From NCBI RefSeq assembly GCF_001458735.1, contig NZ_CZQA01000001.1:1178001-1242000 (forward strand): a stretch of DNA of 64,000 bases, given 5' to 3'. How positions within the stretch are numbered: the stretch's first letter is position 1; each line of letters starts with the position of its first letter. Positions 18,369-26,490 of this stretch are shown here, piece by piece. Under the pieces are notes generated by a model. It was not told where the DNA came from. It did not search any database and was given only the letters and a program-made list of their open reading frames with translations. This DNA is from Candidatus Nitrospira nitrosa (GTDB taxonomy: Bacteria > Nitrospirota > Nitrospiria > Nitrospirales > Nitrospiraceae). Position numbers and translations under genes: made by a program.

Positions 18369-19565
18369 ATGGGGTTGGGCGACGGGTTTTATCGAATCAA
18401 GCGATTGCCTCCGTATGTCTTCGCGCAGGTTCAAGCACTGAAGCTGGAAGCACGGCAACGGGGTGAAGACATCATCGACTTCGGCATGGGGAATCCGGAT
18501 CAACCTACCCCTACGCACATTGTCGAGAAGATGATCGAAGCCGCACGTAAAGGGAAGAATCATCGTTACTCTGCATCACGTGGGATCACCAAGCTTCGGC
18601 ACGCCATTTGCGGGTGGTACAAGCGAAACTATAATGTCGATCTCGACCCGGAGACCGAAGCGATCGTCACGATCGGATCGAAGGAAGGCCTCGCGCACCT
18701 CGCTCTGGCCATCATCGGTCCCGGCGACGTGGTCATGACTCCTACGCCGACCTATCCTATTCATATGTACAGTTTCATCATTGCCGGCGGGGAAGTCTGC
18801 GGCATCGAGCTTCGCCAGGACAGCGATTTTTTTGAAGATCTCACCCGTGTCTATCGGCAGACGTTCCCGCGGCCCAAGATTCTGGTTATCAATTTCCCGC
18901 ACAACCCCACAACCGCGGTGGCGGATCTGGGCTTTTTCAAGAAGATCGTGGCGTTTGCCAAGGAACACAATGTCATCGTCATCCACGATCTGGCCTATGC
19001 TGATCTGGTCTTTGACGGCTATAAGGCCCCGAGTTTTCTTCAGGTTCCAGGAGCAAAGGACTGCGGGGTGGAATTTTATACCCTGTCGAAAGCCTATAAT
19101 ATGCCTGGCTGGCGCGTCGGCTTCTGTGTCGGTAATCGAGAGGTCGTCGGTGCGTTGGCGAAGATCAAGAGCTACCTCGATTATGGGATTTTCCAGCCTC
19201 TTCAAATTGCGAGCGTCATCGCACTGAACGGCCCACAGGACTGTGTCAAAGAAACCGTGCATCGATATCAGAAACGTCGCGATGTGCTGGTCGGTGGGCT
19301 GAACCGAATTGGGTGGCAAGTCGCGAAGCCGTTGGCGACAATGTTCGTGTGGGCGCGCATCCCCTTGCCCTATCGCCACATGGGCTCGTTGGAGTTTTCG
19401 AAGCTCTTGCTCAAAGACGCCAAGGTGGCGGTGTCGCCTGGAATCGGATTCGGCGAAGGGGGCGATGAGTACGTGCGGTTTGGACTCGTGGAGAACGAAC
19501 ATCGTACGCGGCAGGCGGTCCGTGGGATCCGCAAAACCCTCAAGCTTGAGGGAGACGAGGAATGA
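18369..19565 (+). CDS. Class I/II aminotransferase, AlaC-type (alanine/glutamate-pyruvate)
   Basis: PLP enzyme of fold type I, 398 residues. [14 protein letters not shown] is the region that begins the large domain. [13 protein letters not shown] carries the conserved Asn that contacts the cofactor, and [15 protein letters not shown] places the Schiff-base lysine at Lys241. The sequence is nearest in type to AlaC/YfdZ and related LL-DAP or glutamate-pyruvate aminotransferases. Exact substrate is not certain; its place at the head of hom-thrC-lysC suggests amino-acid synthesis. Stop and hom start overlap as ATGA. Confidence 0.85.
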
Positions 19566-20875
19566 AGTCTCGGATCGGAGTGGGGATCATTGGGTTTGGG
19601 ACCGTCGGCACCGGGGTCGCCAAGACTCTCCTTAGTAATGCCGATCTCATCCGCCGCCGGGTCGGCGTGCCGATTGAATTGGTTCGCGTGGCAGACCTGG
19701 ACATTGTCAAGGACCGTGGAGTGACGGTAGCTCCAGGGGTCCTCACGACCGATGCGAAGCAAGTCCTGGCGGATCCCGACATCGACATCGTGATTGAACT
19801 GATCGGTGGGTACGACACGGCAAAGCGAATCATATTGGAATCGATCGCTGCCGGGAAGCATGTTGTGACGGCGAACAAGGCGCTCTTGGCGTTGCACGGC
19901 GAAGAAATCTTTGCGGCCGCCACCCGGAAGGGTGTGGAGTTGGGGTTCGAGGCCAGCGTGGGCGGTGGAATCCCTGTGCTTCGAGCGTTGACGGAAGGGC
20001 TGGCCGGCAATACGATCGAGTCCATATACGGAATCATCAATGGAACATCCAACTATATCTTGTCGAGAATGACCCAAGAGGGGCACGACTTTCAGGCGGT
20101 ACTCGCAGACGCTCAGCAGGCGGGCTATGCGGAGGCGGACCCCACGTTTGATGTCGCCGGGGTCGATTCTGCGCACAAACTGGCCATTCTCGTGAATCTC
20201 GCCTACGGTACTCCTGTCAACTTCAAGGAAATTTATACGGAAGGGATCACGAACATCACGCCGACCGACATCGCGTACGCCAAACAGTTTGGCTGCACGA
20301 TCAAGCTCTTGGGCATCGCGAAGTGTGTGAACGGAGAAATCGAAGCGCGGGTGCATCCCACGATGCTTCCGTCCACCTCTCCCATTGCACAAGTCGAAGA
20401 TGTGTACAATGCCATCCAGCTTGTTGGGGATGCCGTCGGTGATGTTGTGCTTTATGGGCGCGGAGCCGGGTCCATGCCGACCGGGAGTGCGGTGGTCAGC
20501 GATGTGATCGCCATCGGGCGCAATATTCTCAAAGGTGCGATCGGCCGGGTGCCGGTTGCCTCATTCCAACAGGACCATCGGCGACCGTTACGGCTTCGGG
20601 CCATGGAGGAGATTAGTTCGCTCTACTACCTCCGGTTTACCGTGGTGGACCGCCCTGGAGTCTTGGCGCAGATCGCGGGTGAACTCGGGCGTTGCGGGAT
20701 CAGTATCTCCTCGATGGTTCAACAGGGGCGACGAGAGGGGCAGACTGTCCCGGTTGTCATTAAGACTCACATGGCCAAAGAACGCGACGTACAAACCGCA
20801 CTTCGCGAAATCAACCGGCACGCATTCGTGGCTGAACCGACGAGATTGATCCGTGTGGAAGGTAGAGACGAGTAA
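19562..20875 (+). CDS. hom: Homoserine dehydrogenase
   Basis: Reduces aspartate semialdehyde to homoserine, the branch step to threonine and methionine. 437 residues. N-terminal Rossmann fold with [13 protein letters not shown] (about 7-19), a catalytic domain with [16 protein letters not shown] and [11 protein letters not shown], and a C-terminal ACT domain (from about 350, [19 protein letters not shown]) that usually mediates feedback by threonine. Overlaps the aminotransferase by four bases and is followed three bases later by thrC. Confidence 0.97.
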
Positions 20876-20878
20876 CCG

Positions 20879-21937
20879 ATGAATCGTTGGCGAGGAATTA
20901 TAGAGGAATACCGTAAATTCCTTCCTGTTACCGAGAAGACTCCAGTCATCAGCTTGGGCGAGGGAAATACCCCACTGATTCGTGCTGCACGACTGGCCAA
21001 GGCGATTGCGCCTGGGATTGAACTCTATCTCAAGTTCGAAGGGGTCAATCCTACCGGATCATTTAAAGACCGGGGGATGACCTTTGCCATTTCGAAAGCG
21101 GTGGAGAGTGGTGTGCGGGCGGTCATGTGCGCGTCAACGGGGAATACGTCAGCGTCCGCCGCCGCCTATGGAGCTCGAGCCGGATTGTCGGTGTATGTGT
21201 TGATTCCAGCCGGCAAGATCGCAATGGGCAAATTGTCTCAAGCCATGATGCATCAGGCGACGGTCATTCAGATAGAAGGAAACTTTGATCAGGCCCTCAC
21301 CCTCGTCAAAGACCTATCAACCTCACTTCATATCGAACTCGTGAACTCCGTGAATCCGTACAGGATTGAAGGGCAGAAGACCGCAGCGTTTGAGGTCTGC
21401 GATCAACTCGGCGATGCTCCGGCCATCCACGTCTTGCCGGTGGGAAATGCCGGAAATATCACAGCGTATTGGAAGGGCTACAAGGAGTATCGTGCCGCCA
21501 GTCAGACCACACGGCTGCCCCGCATGATGGGGTTTCAAGCGGCAGGTGCGGCCCCCATCGTATTGGGGAAGGTTGTCGAACAACCACAAACCATTGCAAC
21601 CGCCATTCGGATCGGCAACCCTGCGAGTTGGTCCTCGGCTTTGAACGCGGTGCAAGAGTCATCCGGCGCGATCGATATGGTGACAGACGACGAAATTCTT
21701 CAGGCCTATACAGTGGTGGCTGCCACGGAAGGGGTCTTTTGCGAGCCGGCCTCGGCCGCCTCCGTGGCCGGCGTGGCCAAGCTTCATCGTCACAAGGCTC
21801 TGCGGGAAGGTGACACGGTGGTATGTACTCTGACAGGACATGGCCTGAAGGATGCCGATACCGCCATTTCTGTGTCCAAACAACCACTGACGGTCAAGGC
21901 GACGCGCGAGGATGTCGCTCGATTATTGAACGTGTGA
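20879..21937 (+). CDS. thrC: Threonine synthase
   Basis: PLP enzyme that converts O-phosphohomoserine to threonine. 352 residues, the short class. [10 protein letters not shown] at about 22-31, GSFKDRGM with the PLP lysine at Lys63, [19 protein letters not shown] for phosphate binding, and [15 protein letters not shown]. Directly follows hom. It requires phosphohomoserine, yet no standard thrB homoserine kinase is in this operon; the next gene, an ApgM-like protein, occupies the place where one would be expected. Confidence 0.97.
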
Positions 21938-21953: not shown

Positions 21954-23162
21954 ATGAAATATGTGATCGTGCATGCTGGTGGGATGGCGGACCATCCACA
22001 AGCAGAACTCAATGGGCGAACACCACTGCAGGCGGCCGCCACTCCTCATCTCGATCAGCTCACTCAAACGGGAGAGCTCGGTCAGCTGATCATTCCAAGC
22101 GAGGGGATTCGGCATGGAGGTGGATTGCTCGGGGCGGCCATTCTCGGCTATGACCCGAAGAAATACTATCAAGGTCCCGGGCCGCTGGAAGCGGCAAGCC
22201 TGGGTGTCTCGGTGACGGAACATGACGTGGTCTATCGCTGCACGATGGTCACGCTGCGAGCCGATGGTGGAAAGGGCGCAGAGATTAAGAAATTAGGGCC
22301 GAATGTGATCATGGACGATGCGACAGCCGGCTTAATCGAAACTGAAGAGGCCCGCGAATTGCTCGAGGCGATCAACGAGCAACTCGGTTCCGAAACCATT
22401 CAGTTCTATCCGGGCGCCGGTCATCGCCATCTCATGGTCTGGGTCAATGGCAAGTCGCGAGCGCTCTGTCACGATCCGCAGTCCTTCCTTGGTCAATCCA
22501 TTGTCGATGCTCTGCCCACGGGCGACGGTGCAGACATTCTCCGCAAGCTCATGGATGCGGCGCATGTGATCATGCGCGATCATCCGGTCAACGATGAGCG
22601 GATTGCCGAGGGAAAGAAAGCGGCAAATTGTGTGTGGCTGTGGGGTGAGGGACGAGCCGTCATGTGGCCGAGCCTCACCGAAAAGTACGACATTGCCGGG
22701 GCCGTCGTGGCGACCAGCGATGTCTACCGCGGCGTCGGGATCTGTGCCGGCCTTGAGGCAGTCGATCCGGAACGACTGGCCGACGGCGATCTGCGCACCA
22801 GGGCTACTGTGGCGCTCGCAGAATTTGCCAAGAAAGATTTTGTGTATGTTCACGCTCGATTGACGGACGAGATCATGCACGGCACTGATATCAAAGCAAA
22901 GGTGCGTGGCATCGAAGAGTTCGACCGTCATTTGGTTGGTCCGCTTGTTGAGGGCCTGGCCAAACAAGGGCCCTTTCGGTTCCTGGTCGTGTGCGAGCAC
23001 GGACGAGGGGTCAACGGCCAACCCTTTTATGCGTTCGGCGAGGGAGGCCAGCAAGTTGCCGGATCAGCCGGCCGTCGATTCACTGAGATAGATGCTCAGG
23101 CCGCCGATATGCCTGCTCGCGATGCCACAAAGTTCGTGAATAAGTTCTTCTCTAAAAGCTGA
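21954..23162 (+). CDS. ApgM-like (cofactor-independent phosphoglycerate mutase / proposed homoserine kinase family) protein with altered active site
   Basis: 402 residues with the fold signature of the archaeal-type 2,3-bisphosphoglycerate-independent phosphoglycerate mutase family, in which some operon-linked members have been proposed as alternative homoserine kinases. Family marks seen: GGMADHP at the start, [34 protein letters not shown], and [13 protein letters not shown]. Residues expected for catalysis are changed. The usual G-D-G-M metal ligand is A-G-G-M, and the usual P-G-S-D nucleophile segment reads H-G-G-G (about residues 54-57). The D-H-S motif near the C-terminus reads E-H-G. 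It lies between thrC and lysC. Whether it is an enzyme is open. Confidence 0.75.
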
Positions 23163-23167
23163 CCATC

Positions 23168-24391
23168 GTGGCACTGATCGTCCAGAAATACGGCGGCACG
23201 TCGGTCGGGACAATCGAGCGTATCCAACGGGTGGCCGATCGTGTCGAAAAAACACTTCGAGACGGCCATCAAGTTGTCGTCGTGCTCTCCGCGATGAGCG
23301 GTGAAACAGATCGCCTCATTAAACTCGCCCACGAAGTGACCGCGACTCCGGATGATCGGGAGATGGACATGCTGCTCTCCACCGGCGAGCGCGTCACCAT
23401 CGCCCTGTTGGCGATGGAGTTACGTGGGAGAGGTGTTGATGCGCGCTCGTTTACAGGCCGGCAGGTAGGCATCATGACTGACAGCGCCCATACGAAGGCG
23501 CGTATCGCACGCGTGACGTCCGGACGGCTCCGCGAGGCCCTGGATCAAGGGGTGGTGCCGGTTGTGGCGGGGTTTCAAGGCATCAACGAACGGTCGGATG
23601 TGACGACGCTGGGGCGAGGTGGGTCCGATCTTTCCGCAGTTGCGGTGGCGGCAGCACTCAAAGCCGATCGCTGCATTATCTTTACCGATGTCGACGGGGT
23701 CTACACCGCCGATCCCAATATTGTCCCGGCGGCGAAGCGCATCGACAAGATTTCCTATGAAGAGATGCTCGAAATGGCGAGTCTTGGCGCCAAAGTGCTG
23801 CAGACTCGATCGGTGGAATTCGCGGCGAAGTTCAACGTGCCGGTCGAAGTGAATTCCAGCTTCAAAGAAGGAAAGGGAACGCTCGTGACGAAGGAAGATA
23901 CGGATATGGAAGCGGCGGCGGTTGCCGGAGTCACGGGTGACCGGAACCAGGCAAAGATCACGATTATCGGTGTCCCGGATAAGCCGGGCATTGCCGCTCG
24001 GATCTTCGGGCCTGTGGCCGATGCCAACATCAATGTCGATATGATCATTCAGAACATCAGCCAAGCAGCCTTGACGGACCTCTCCTTTACCGTCCCCCGG
24101 GCGGACCTCAAAAAAGCCGTGCCCCTCATCCAAGGCGTGGCGAAGGATATCGAGGCCAAATCGGTCTCCGTCACCGAAGCCATTGCGAAGGTTTCGCTTA
24201 TCGGCGTAGGCATGCGGTCGCATTCCGGCGTGGCAGCCAAGATGTTCAACGTGCTGTCGCACGAGGGGGTCAACATCATGATGATCAGTACGTCGGAGAT
24301 CAAAATCTCTTGCGTGATCGATGAGAAGTACCTCGAACTGGCCATGCGCTCCCTCCATTCAGCATTCGGTCTTGACCAAGTGCGGTCCTGA
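23168..24391 (+). CDS. lysC: Aspartate kinase
   Basis: Phosphorylates aspartate, the first step to lysine, threonine and methionine. 407 residues. N-terminal kinase domain with [23 protein letters not shown], and [16 protein letters not shown] with [12 protein letters not shown] for nucleotide and substrate binding. Two C-terminal ACT domains (from about 265, [18 protein letters not shown], and a second near 345) fit allosteric control by lysine or threonine. GTG 23168 is the start, with no obvious ribosome site, five bases after the ApgM-like gene, so it is probably coupled. Last gene of the operon. Confidence 0.97.
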
Positions 24392-24840: not shown

Positions 24841-26490
24841 ATGGCTAGCTATACCAAACGATCACGTACTTCCCGCGTTGTCCGTGAACAGGCTCCGGTT
24901 GCTGTTAAAAGTCCGTCTGTCGAGCAGACGGCGAAATTAGAAATCTATGACACCACGTTGCGTGATGGCGCGCAGGCGGAGGATGTCAGTTTCTCCGCTG
25001 CAGACAAGGTGTTGATTGCACAGAAGTTGGATAGCCTGGGCGTGCATTTTATTGAAGGTGGATGGCCCGGCGCGAATCCAAAAGATATTGAATTCTTTCG
25101 GATGATCAAGACGATTCCGCTGAAACGTGCGGACGTCATCGCGTTCGGGTCGACCAGGAAAGCCAGCAATACGGTTCGCAAGGATCCGAATCTACAGGCG
25201 TTACTCGGTGCAGACACAAAGATTATCACGCTCTTTGGGAAGACCTGGTCGCTCCATGTGACCGACGCGCTCGGTATCTCCCTGCACAAAAACCTTGAGT
25301 TGATCGGTGACTCCATCGGCTATCTCCGAGGAAAAGGACGCCGTGTCTTCTACGATGCGGAGCATTTCTTCGATGGCTATAAGACCAATCCGGACTATGC
25401 GTTGAATACGATCAGGCAAGCGGTGCAAGCCGGTGCGGAGCGAGTGATTCTTTGTGACACCAACGGGGGCACGATGCCTTGGGAAATCCGTGAGATCTGC
25501 GGGGTCGTGCAGCGGGAATGCGGGGTGCCGCTCGGTATCCACGCACATAACGACTGTGAAATGGCCGTGGCGAATTCCCTTGTGGCGATCGAGATGGGCA
25601 TTCAGCAGGTACAGGGGACGATCAATGGCATTGGAGAACGCTGTGGAAACGCCAACCTCTGCTCCATTATTCCGAATCTCGAGCTGAAAATGAAACGCCA
25701 GGCCCTGAGCAATACCCTGAGCCATCTCAAGGATGTATCCGGATTTGTCACGGAGATCGCCAATCTGATGCCCAATAAGCATCAGCCCTACGTCGGAGAT
25801 TCCGCGTTCGCCCATAAAGGCGGGGTGCACATTCACGCAGTGTTGAAGAACTCGGCGACCTATGAACATATCGATCCGGCTCGTGTCGGCAATCGGCAGC
25901 GGATGTTGATCTCCGACTACGGAGGACGCAGCGGTCTGCTCGACAAAATCGAAGCCTATGGAATCAGGCTTTCGAAGAACCACGCCAAAGTTGATGAGCT
26001 GGTCCATACCCTGAAGGAACGAGAAAGTCAGGGCTATCAATTCGAAGGGGCCGAGGGCTCATTTGAGTTGTTGATGCGAAAGGCGATGGGGAGTCACAAG
26101 TCGTCATTTCGATTGCTTGGCTTTCGTGTGATCGTCGAGAAGAAGCAGGAGGATGGTTCCCTGCTCTCGGAGGCGACGGTGATGGTCAAGGTTGGGGAGG
26201 TGGTCGAGCACACGGCGGCGGTCGGGGCGGGGCCGGTCAATGCGTTGGATCATGCATTGCGCAAAGCCCTGGAGAAGTTCTATCCGCAGCTTCGAGAGGT
26301 GAAACTGCTCGACTACAAGGTCCGGGTGTTGGCGGCGAATCGTGGGACCGAATCAAAAGTGCGTGTCTTAATCGAGTCGGGCGATCACAAAGACAAATGG
26401 GGAACGGTGGGGGTCTCTGAAAATATCATTGAAGCGACGTGGCAGGCTCTCGTCGATAGTATCGAATATAAACTGCTGTCAAAAAACTAG
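24841..26490 (+). CDS. cimA: (R)-citramalate synthase
   Basis: Condenses pyruvate and acetyl-CoA to citramalate, giving isoleucine without threonine deaminase. 549 residues, in the range of CimA/LeuA2-type proteins and longer than most isopropylmalate synthases. LEIYDTTLRDGAQAEDVSF holds the HMGL-like metal and catalytic motif, FIEGGWPGANPKD is typical of CimA, and HAHNDCEMAVANSL gives metal ligands. The C-terminal LeuA dimer domain (about 420-545) is the feedback region. ATG 24841 lacks a visible Shine-Dalgarno sequence and follows a C-run. The name rests on overall resemblance; isopropylmalate synthase is the main alternative. Confidence 0.88.
   Translation: MASYTKRSRTSRVVREQAPVAVKSPSVEQTAKLEIYDTTLRDGAQAEDVSFSAADKVLIAQKLDSLGVHFIEGGWPGANPKDIEFFRMIKTIPLKRADVIAFGSTRKASNTVRKDPNLQALLGADTKIITLFGKTWSLHVTDALGISLHKNLELIGDSIGYLRGKGRRVFYDAEHFFDGYKTNPDYALNTIRQAVQAGAERVILCDTNGGTMPWEIREICGVVQRECGVPLGIHAHNDCEMAVANSLVAIEMGIQQVQGTINGIGERCGNANLCSIIPNLELKMKRQALSNTLSHLKDVSGFVTEIANLMPNKHQPYVGDSAFAHKGGVHIHAVLKNSATYEHIDPARVGNRQRMLISDYGGRSGLLDKIEAYGIRLSKNHAKVDELVHTLKERESQGYQFEGAEGSFELLMRKAMGSHKSSFRLLGFRVIVEKKQEDGSLLSEATVMVKVGEVVEHTAAVGAGPVNALDHALRKALEKFYPQLREVKLLDYKVRVLAANRGTESKVRVLIESGDHKDKWGTVGVSENIIEATWQALVDSIEYKLLSKN

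Follow-up and report, generated by a model that had tools for sequence, protein, structure and literature searches.

The window, the whole stretch of 64,000 nucleotides that was analysed, belongs to a genome of 4.42 Mb that is 99.99% complete. The gene studied here, designated X, is a 402-residue open reading frame (ORF) with an ATG start, placed between thrC and lysC in a six-gene order:

18369..19565, + strand: aminotransferase of the alanine / LL-diaminopimelate aminotransferase type, opening the operon, with a 4-base overlap with hom
19562..20875, + strand: hom, homoserine dehydrogenase with an ACT domain (ORF and profile matches)
20879..21937, + strand: thrC, threonine synthase (TIGR00260, 324 bits, cut-off 167)
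21954..23162, + strand: X, derived from the ApgM/TIGR02535 group, active site lost, proposed pseudoenzyme (profiles, alignments, tree)
23168..24391, + strand: lysC, aspartate kinase, GTG start (ORF and profile match)
24841..26490, + strand: cimA, citramalate synthase, conserved downstream (TIGR00977, 751 bits; synteny in relatives)

The genes from the aminotransferase to lysC are separated by -4, 3, 16 and 5 bases, spacings that suggest a single transcript. An earlier note on this DNA had described an ApgM-like gene in a hom-thrC-X-lysC arrangement, and both the ORFs and the profile matches bear this out. In the profile scan, X narrowly passes the apgM model TIGR00306 (330.3 bits, cut-off 320), matches PF10143 (144.6 bits) and PF01676, and does not reach the cut-off of TIGR02535, the 'proposed homoserine kinase' (316.4 bits against 446.3). 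The genomic linkage associated with TIGR02535, hom and thrC nearby and thrB absent, is found for X. The structure prediction suggested by the earlier note points to an ApgM fold. In the AlphaFold2 model the core is confident, the lid mostly has pLDDT values below 50, and 151 of the 402 residues fall below this value; the model superimposes on 2zkt_B with a Z of 27.5 and an rmsd of 4.3 over 351 aligned residues. X is also alignable over most of its length to 2zkt, 3kd8 and 3idd, and the profile comparison with 2zkt gives an E value of 5e-39.

The active site was evaluated with the seven metal and nucleophile sites of iPGM, mapped onto X through the conserved motifs. In the C. elegans iPGM, the metal sites are formed by Asp426, His430 and His485 and by Asp37, Ser86, Asp467 and His468, according to an excerpt of PMC5382265. 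X was aligned to 2zkt, 3kd8 and 22 relatives with the seven residues intact, and the features within X are the following:

21978..21980, + strand: codon 9, Gly for the first metal-binding Asp (GDGM to HAGGM; alignments)
22119..22121, + strand: codon 56, Gly for the nucleophile Ser (PGSD to HGGG, the following Asp also being Gly; alignments)
22134..22643, + strand: lid, residues 61-230, most of the PF10143 match (38-213) plus its end, conserved in the degenerate clade (alignments, entropy)
22866..22880, + strand: codons 305-309, D-x3-H metal motif kept (Asp305, His309; alignments)
22995..23000, + strand: codons 348-349, EH for DH (Glu348; His349 kept; alignments)
23001..23159, + strand: C-terminal tail, third metal His gone, HS.PVP loop missing or shortened (sequence, alignment)

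At the seven sites X holds, in order, Gly, Gly, Asp, His, Glu, His and no residue, that is, four of the seven are lost. There is no His downstream of His349, and the third-His position is uncertain wherever the tail is shortened. The alignment confirms the three replacements first noticed in X (Asp to Gly in GDGM, PGSD to HGGG, DH to EH). The accompanying statement that the other motifs are intact is correct for D-x3-H and His349 and overlooked the loss of the third metal His. Catalytic Ser or Asp residues at shifted positions, which the earlier note had named as evidence against its reading, have no candidate in the alignment of X to its relatives. Sequencing or assembly error as the cause of the losses was ruled out by the identical motifs in near relatives. 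X therefore keeps three of the seven residues of the two-metal centre and serine nucleophile of the alkaline phosphatase superfamily, and does not have the full set of catalytic Ser and metal ligands of TIGR00306.

The relatives were labelled by family, f1 being the family of the window, f2 to f4 families of the same order and f5 to f13 families of the same class. Within the window's order 59 full-length sequences were compared, 46 from f1 and 13 from f2/f3, and none keeps all seven residues; the alignment used for these counts omits L105 and L183 (one broken gene), the fragment L106 and the duplicates L089 and L115, and the partial L102 lies outside the 13. All seven are intact in 22 relatives outside the order, three of the same class and 19 elsewhere in the phylum; L109 and L113 also keep all seven and were excluded from this set as paralogs. 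The number of residues kept ranges from one to five in f1 and from none to five in f2/f3, and at most positions the replacement takes several different forms. All 46 f1 sequences lack the third metal His, 11 of the 46 keep five of the seven residues, and L042 and L044 are left with one. No position of the seven is invariant across f1 and no substitute set is fixed. Two further families of the window's class, f6 and f10, show a separate decay, with 0, 0 and 4 residues kept. The three intact relatives scanned with TIGR02535 pass it (L052, L056 and L062, with 557.7, 531.3 and 483.9 bits), and the degenerate L048 fails.

The tree omits 20 near-identical genus rows and L102, and it came with program warnings about long-branch joins and about the unusual composition of some rows; in it the degenerate X of f1-f3 form one clade with support of 99/98. 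The aPGM-type paralogs of relatives (L107, 600 bits with PRK04135) occupy a branch apart from X. This separation and the missing nucleophile and three metal ligands speak against X being a phosphoglycerate mutase, a reading to which the score just over the apgM cut-off and the fold match to 2zkt would lend themselves and which is regarded as highly improbable. A second ApgM paralog, L112 (G318:C1, about 1139516-1140796), is very diverged and sits on a long branch; it has a Cys aligned to the first metal Asp and keeps the other six residues.

The six-gene order is present in all 16 f1 regions with long flanks (L034-L048 and L073) and complete in five of the 22 intact relatives (L052, L054, L056, L059, L062). 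In 21 of these 22, hom, thrC or lysC lies within the fetched stretch, and L101 has none of them. Among 80 named loci, lysC adjoins X in every case and thrC precedes it in 78, X beginning at the contig end in the other two; in the alignment of these loci the DH-pair column is shifted and no residue counts were drawn from it. The closest named record, a Nitrospira MAG, has an X that is 98% identical, and the X of the complete N. moscoviensis genome is 80% identical. Counted by hand, X occurs in 108 of the 110 sampled f1 genomes, on the assumption, taken from the kinship ordering, that the 42 genomes without a match beyond those listed include no further f1 genome. In the remaining two, G254 and G336, the only matches are thrC-like with at most 38% identity, and the operon is thus probably missing from these assemblies.

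X is absent from the operon of three genera examined (g16, g18 and g24), and all six X-free operons examined keep the order aminotransferase-hom-thrC-lysC-cimA without it. In G204 (f2; L183:4760-5991) four in-frame stops interrupt the copy that lies between thrC and lysC. The absences and the broken copy indicate that any role of X is dispensable in some lineages. No kinase was seen in the X-free operon of g24, where the extra ORF between lysC and cimA (L181:10173-11159) looks by eye like the SUMF (formylglycine-generating) type. L182 has a lysC-cimA gap of similar size.

Across 32 genus sequences, X has a median dN/dS of 0.090, compared with 0.045 in thrC and 0.039 in lysC (300, 263 and 356 usable pairs, respectively, each of 496), values obtained with the crude NG86 method at a high dS (median near 1.2). 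X thus changes at roughly double the rate of the genes next to it, yet it is clearly constrained. The 107 listed f1 match rows have no in-frame stop, and the remaining one of the 108, G338, is a fragment at contig ends. The lid and the core were compared in subsets of 18 f1, 10 f2/f3 and 22 intact sequences. In the lid the pairwise identity is 60% in the degenerate set and likewise in the 22 intact relatives, whereas in residues 231-355 it drops from 61% in the intact to 38% in the degenerate set; over the whole protein it is 0.58 and 0.47, respectively. The entropy of the degenerate set relative to the intact one is steady or lower in the lid and higher in the core (p 3e-7 to 7e-10); these and the following p values are only a guide, since the tests take sites and sequences as independent and ignore phylogeny. 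Among the columns that do not vary in the 22, the entropy in f1 is 1.88 for the seven catalytic columns, 0.49 for 40 lid columns and 1.33 for 43 other core columns. The catalytic columns exceed the lid in variability (p 0.0002), but their excess over the remaining core columns does not reach significance (p 0.10), which points to a relaxation of the whole core. In addition, K112, K113, E142, Q143 and Q150 are nearly fixed in the degenerate rows and are shared by no more than 23% of the 22 intact ones, 11 of which have a gap at the location of K112/K113. X combines purifying selection with the loss of catalytic residues, as expected of a pseudoenzyme under selection.

The closest rival to a retained pseudoenzyme is a decaying relic, left jobless once another kinase arose and slowly vanishing with no present function. 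The variation of the catalytic sites among relatives, the faster evolution of X relative to the neighbouring genes, the operons of g16, g18 and g24 that persist without it, the four stops of the G204 copy and the independent decay in f6 and f10, where thrB is present, are all compatible with such a fate. On the other hand, a vanishing gene is difficult to reconcile with stop-free f1 rows, a dN/dS of about 0.09, a lid as conserved in degenerate as in intact sequences while the overall identity falls, and new lid residues that are nearly fixed. A relic is consequently considered rather unlikely.

The absence of thrB, first noticed in the window, is upheld genome-wide at the sensitivity of the TIGR00191 and TIGR00938 profiles. 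The best TIGR00191 match (52.8 bits, cut-off 168.25) is IspE, the second (23 bits) is a sugar kinase that resembles heptose kinases, and TIGR00938 has no match in the window's genome at E up to 10. A normal thrB elsewhere together with an unconserved gene, the other finding that would have spoken against the earlier note, is thus not what was observed, X being so widely present in f1.

Several replacements were considered. DvMF_0971, a shikimate-kinase-like homoserine kinase, is a known replacement of ThrB (excerpt of PMC5764234). The window's genome has five shikimate kinase matches and only one is over the cut-off, which leaves no spare copy for a replacement of this type; a second shikimate kinase was accordingly rejected. 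Another ApgM copy was likewise rejected because PF10143 has a single match, and the other PF01676 gene of the genome is phosphopentomutase-like by an 85-residue piece. The APH-type kinases comprise five matches, four over the cut-off, and any of the five may be the missing homoserine kinase. The strongest, C10:446055-446801 (L268), is AmgK-like (174 bits, cut-off 550); L269 and L271 passed no family cut-off when scanned, and L270 and L272 are known as APH matches only. By eye, L268 is followed by a sugar nucleotidyltransferase-like gene, and a role in cell-wall sugar recycling is likely.

Across the phylum, thrB is over the cut-off in 44 of 395 genomes. By hand comparison, six of the 44 have a strong X match (E<1e-40; G007, G117, G129, G181, G270 and G368), and two of the 22 genomes with an all-seven X have thrB (G117 and G368). 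Intact X and thrB are therefore complementary, which is consistent with an intact X in the role of ThrB, the function proposed for TIGR02535 in excerpts of PMC7311316 and PMC9026213. Degenerate X and thrB occur together in G129, G181 and G270, and also in G306, the one genome of 110 in f1 with a thrB match below 1e-20 (167.7 bits, just under the cut-off). The G306 gene lies in a separate lysC-hom-thrC-thrB cluster (G306:C1:1339000-1350000, L184), additional to the main operon with its degenerate X and possibly due to transfer or contamination. TIGR00938 is over the cut-off in none of the 196 genomes of the order and gives weak matches (E up to 0.001) in 34.

At least 18 order-mates are devoid of X, and none of the 18 listed is among the 47 thrB matches of the phylum. 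X need not, therefore, be the missing kinase. The suggestion that X supplies the lacking homoserine kinase retains the support of the conserved operon and the lack of thrB and is weakened by these order-mates. Seven of the 18 were searched for shikimate kinases, with one found in six of them and two in G354, where a shikimate-kinase-like homoserine kinase is possible. N. moscoviensis is an autotroph that grows in mineral medium. Threonine auxotrophy of the X-free lineages is unlikely for autotrophs in mineral medium, and a homoserine kinase of the order that is still unrecognised is favoured over it. With such an enzyme, X could lose its catalytic centre and be dropped in some genera.

A second threonine-synthase-like gene was observed at L273-L281 (for instance L276:8679-9929, of the same genus, and L273:9205-10443). 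Its identity to the ThrC of the operon is about 36%, and two partial translations pass TIGR00260. By eye, its neighbours are ThiF/MoeB-like and JAMM/Mec-like genes, most of the nine fetched genomes also have a cysK-like gene nearby, and no kinase was recognized beside it. The layout resembles sulfur-carrier cysteine/homocysteine clusters, and the enzyme may use phosphohomoserine for homocysteine.

X might still be a homoserine kinase or phosphotransferase with altered chemistry, perhaps one-metal or lid-centred. Its place in the threonine operon of a genome without a known homoserine kinase, the near absence of thrB matches (E<1e-20) from f1, the retained Asp305, His309 and His349 and the conserved lid agree with a catalytic role. 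However, every one of the seven positions varies within f1, L042 and L044 are down to a single residue, and the X-free order-mates require another enzyme anyway; a persisting kinase is thus held to be improbable. The earlier note had left the choice between new chemistry and a non-catalytic partner. The varying positions, the lack of a fixed substitute set and the conserved lid lean to the partner, and new chemistry is the less supported half.

The preferred explanation is that X is probably a pseudoenzyme, derived from a proposed alternative homoserine phosphotransferase and retained for a non-catalytic role via its lid, with the homoserine kinase encoded elsewhere. It descends from a TIGR02535-type ApgM-like protein, which other orders of the phylum carry intact at the equivalent position of the operon. 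The two-metal/serine phosphatase centre has been lost within the window's order, as judged from sequence, and with it phosphate transfer by the family mechanism would not be expected; the f1 sequences that keep five of the seven residues may have weak activity. In f1, purifying selection acts mainly on the PF10143 lid. The lid may still bind a pathway ligand, for example homoserine, phosphohomoserine or phosphoglycerate, and X could regulate or scaffold a neighbouring protein (ThrC, LysC or Hom, for instance). Homoserine would be phosphorylated by an enzyme encoded elsewhere, perhaps common to the X-free order-mates. A bolder proposal is that the function moved from the core to the lid, which would serve either as a new metal-independent homoserine phosphotransfer site or as the sensing part of a new allosteric subunit controlling aspartate-family synthesis in nitrifiers. 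The residues K112, K113, N141, E142, Q143, E147 and Q150 are far more conserved in the window's lineage than in the intact relatives, and the proposal is nevertheless a long shot.

Homoserine kinase is among the steps most often missing when amino-acid pathways are reconstructed; for 29 of 148 prototrophs the confidence was low (excerpt of PMC7311316). Annotating X as a homoserine kinase or a phosphoglycerate mutase could wrongly close this pathway gap for the whole order, major nitrifiers included. The data point instead to an unrecognised homoserine kinase in the order and to a pseudoenzyme kept in a pathway operon. The intact, half-lost, broken and absent forms of X at one operon slot constitute a natural series for testing both ideas.

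Among the known systems closest to X is the TIGR02535 family, named ThrB2 in an excerpt of PMC9026213. Its function as a homoserine kinase is proposed and biochemically unproven, and its member BT2402 of Bacteroides thetaiotaomicron is required for growth without threonine and does not rescue an E. coli thrB mutant, as stated in excerpts of PMC7311316. X shares with this family the fold, the domain order, the hom/thrC operon and a common ancestry, but scores well below the cut-off and has lost four of the seven catalytic and metal residues. With ApgM (TIGR00306; PDB 2zkt, 3kd8 and 3idd), X has in common the fold, the PF10143 lid and the metalloenzyme core, and differs in the missing metal centre and serine, in the genomic context and in its separation from the aPGM-type paralogs. 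The core fold is also common to iPGM of the GpmI type, whereas four of the seven iPGM residues are missing in X, and the lid domain of this iPGM differs from that of X. None of the titles met in the literature searched dealt with homoserine kinase in Nitrospira, which does not amount to absence from print, and no order-wide ApgM-like branch kept in its operon after losing the active site was found there. The family and its proposed function are thus known, and the order-wide degenerate branch that is kept in the operon is apparently new.
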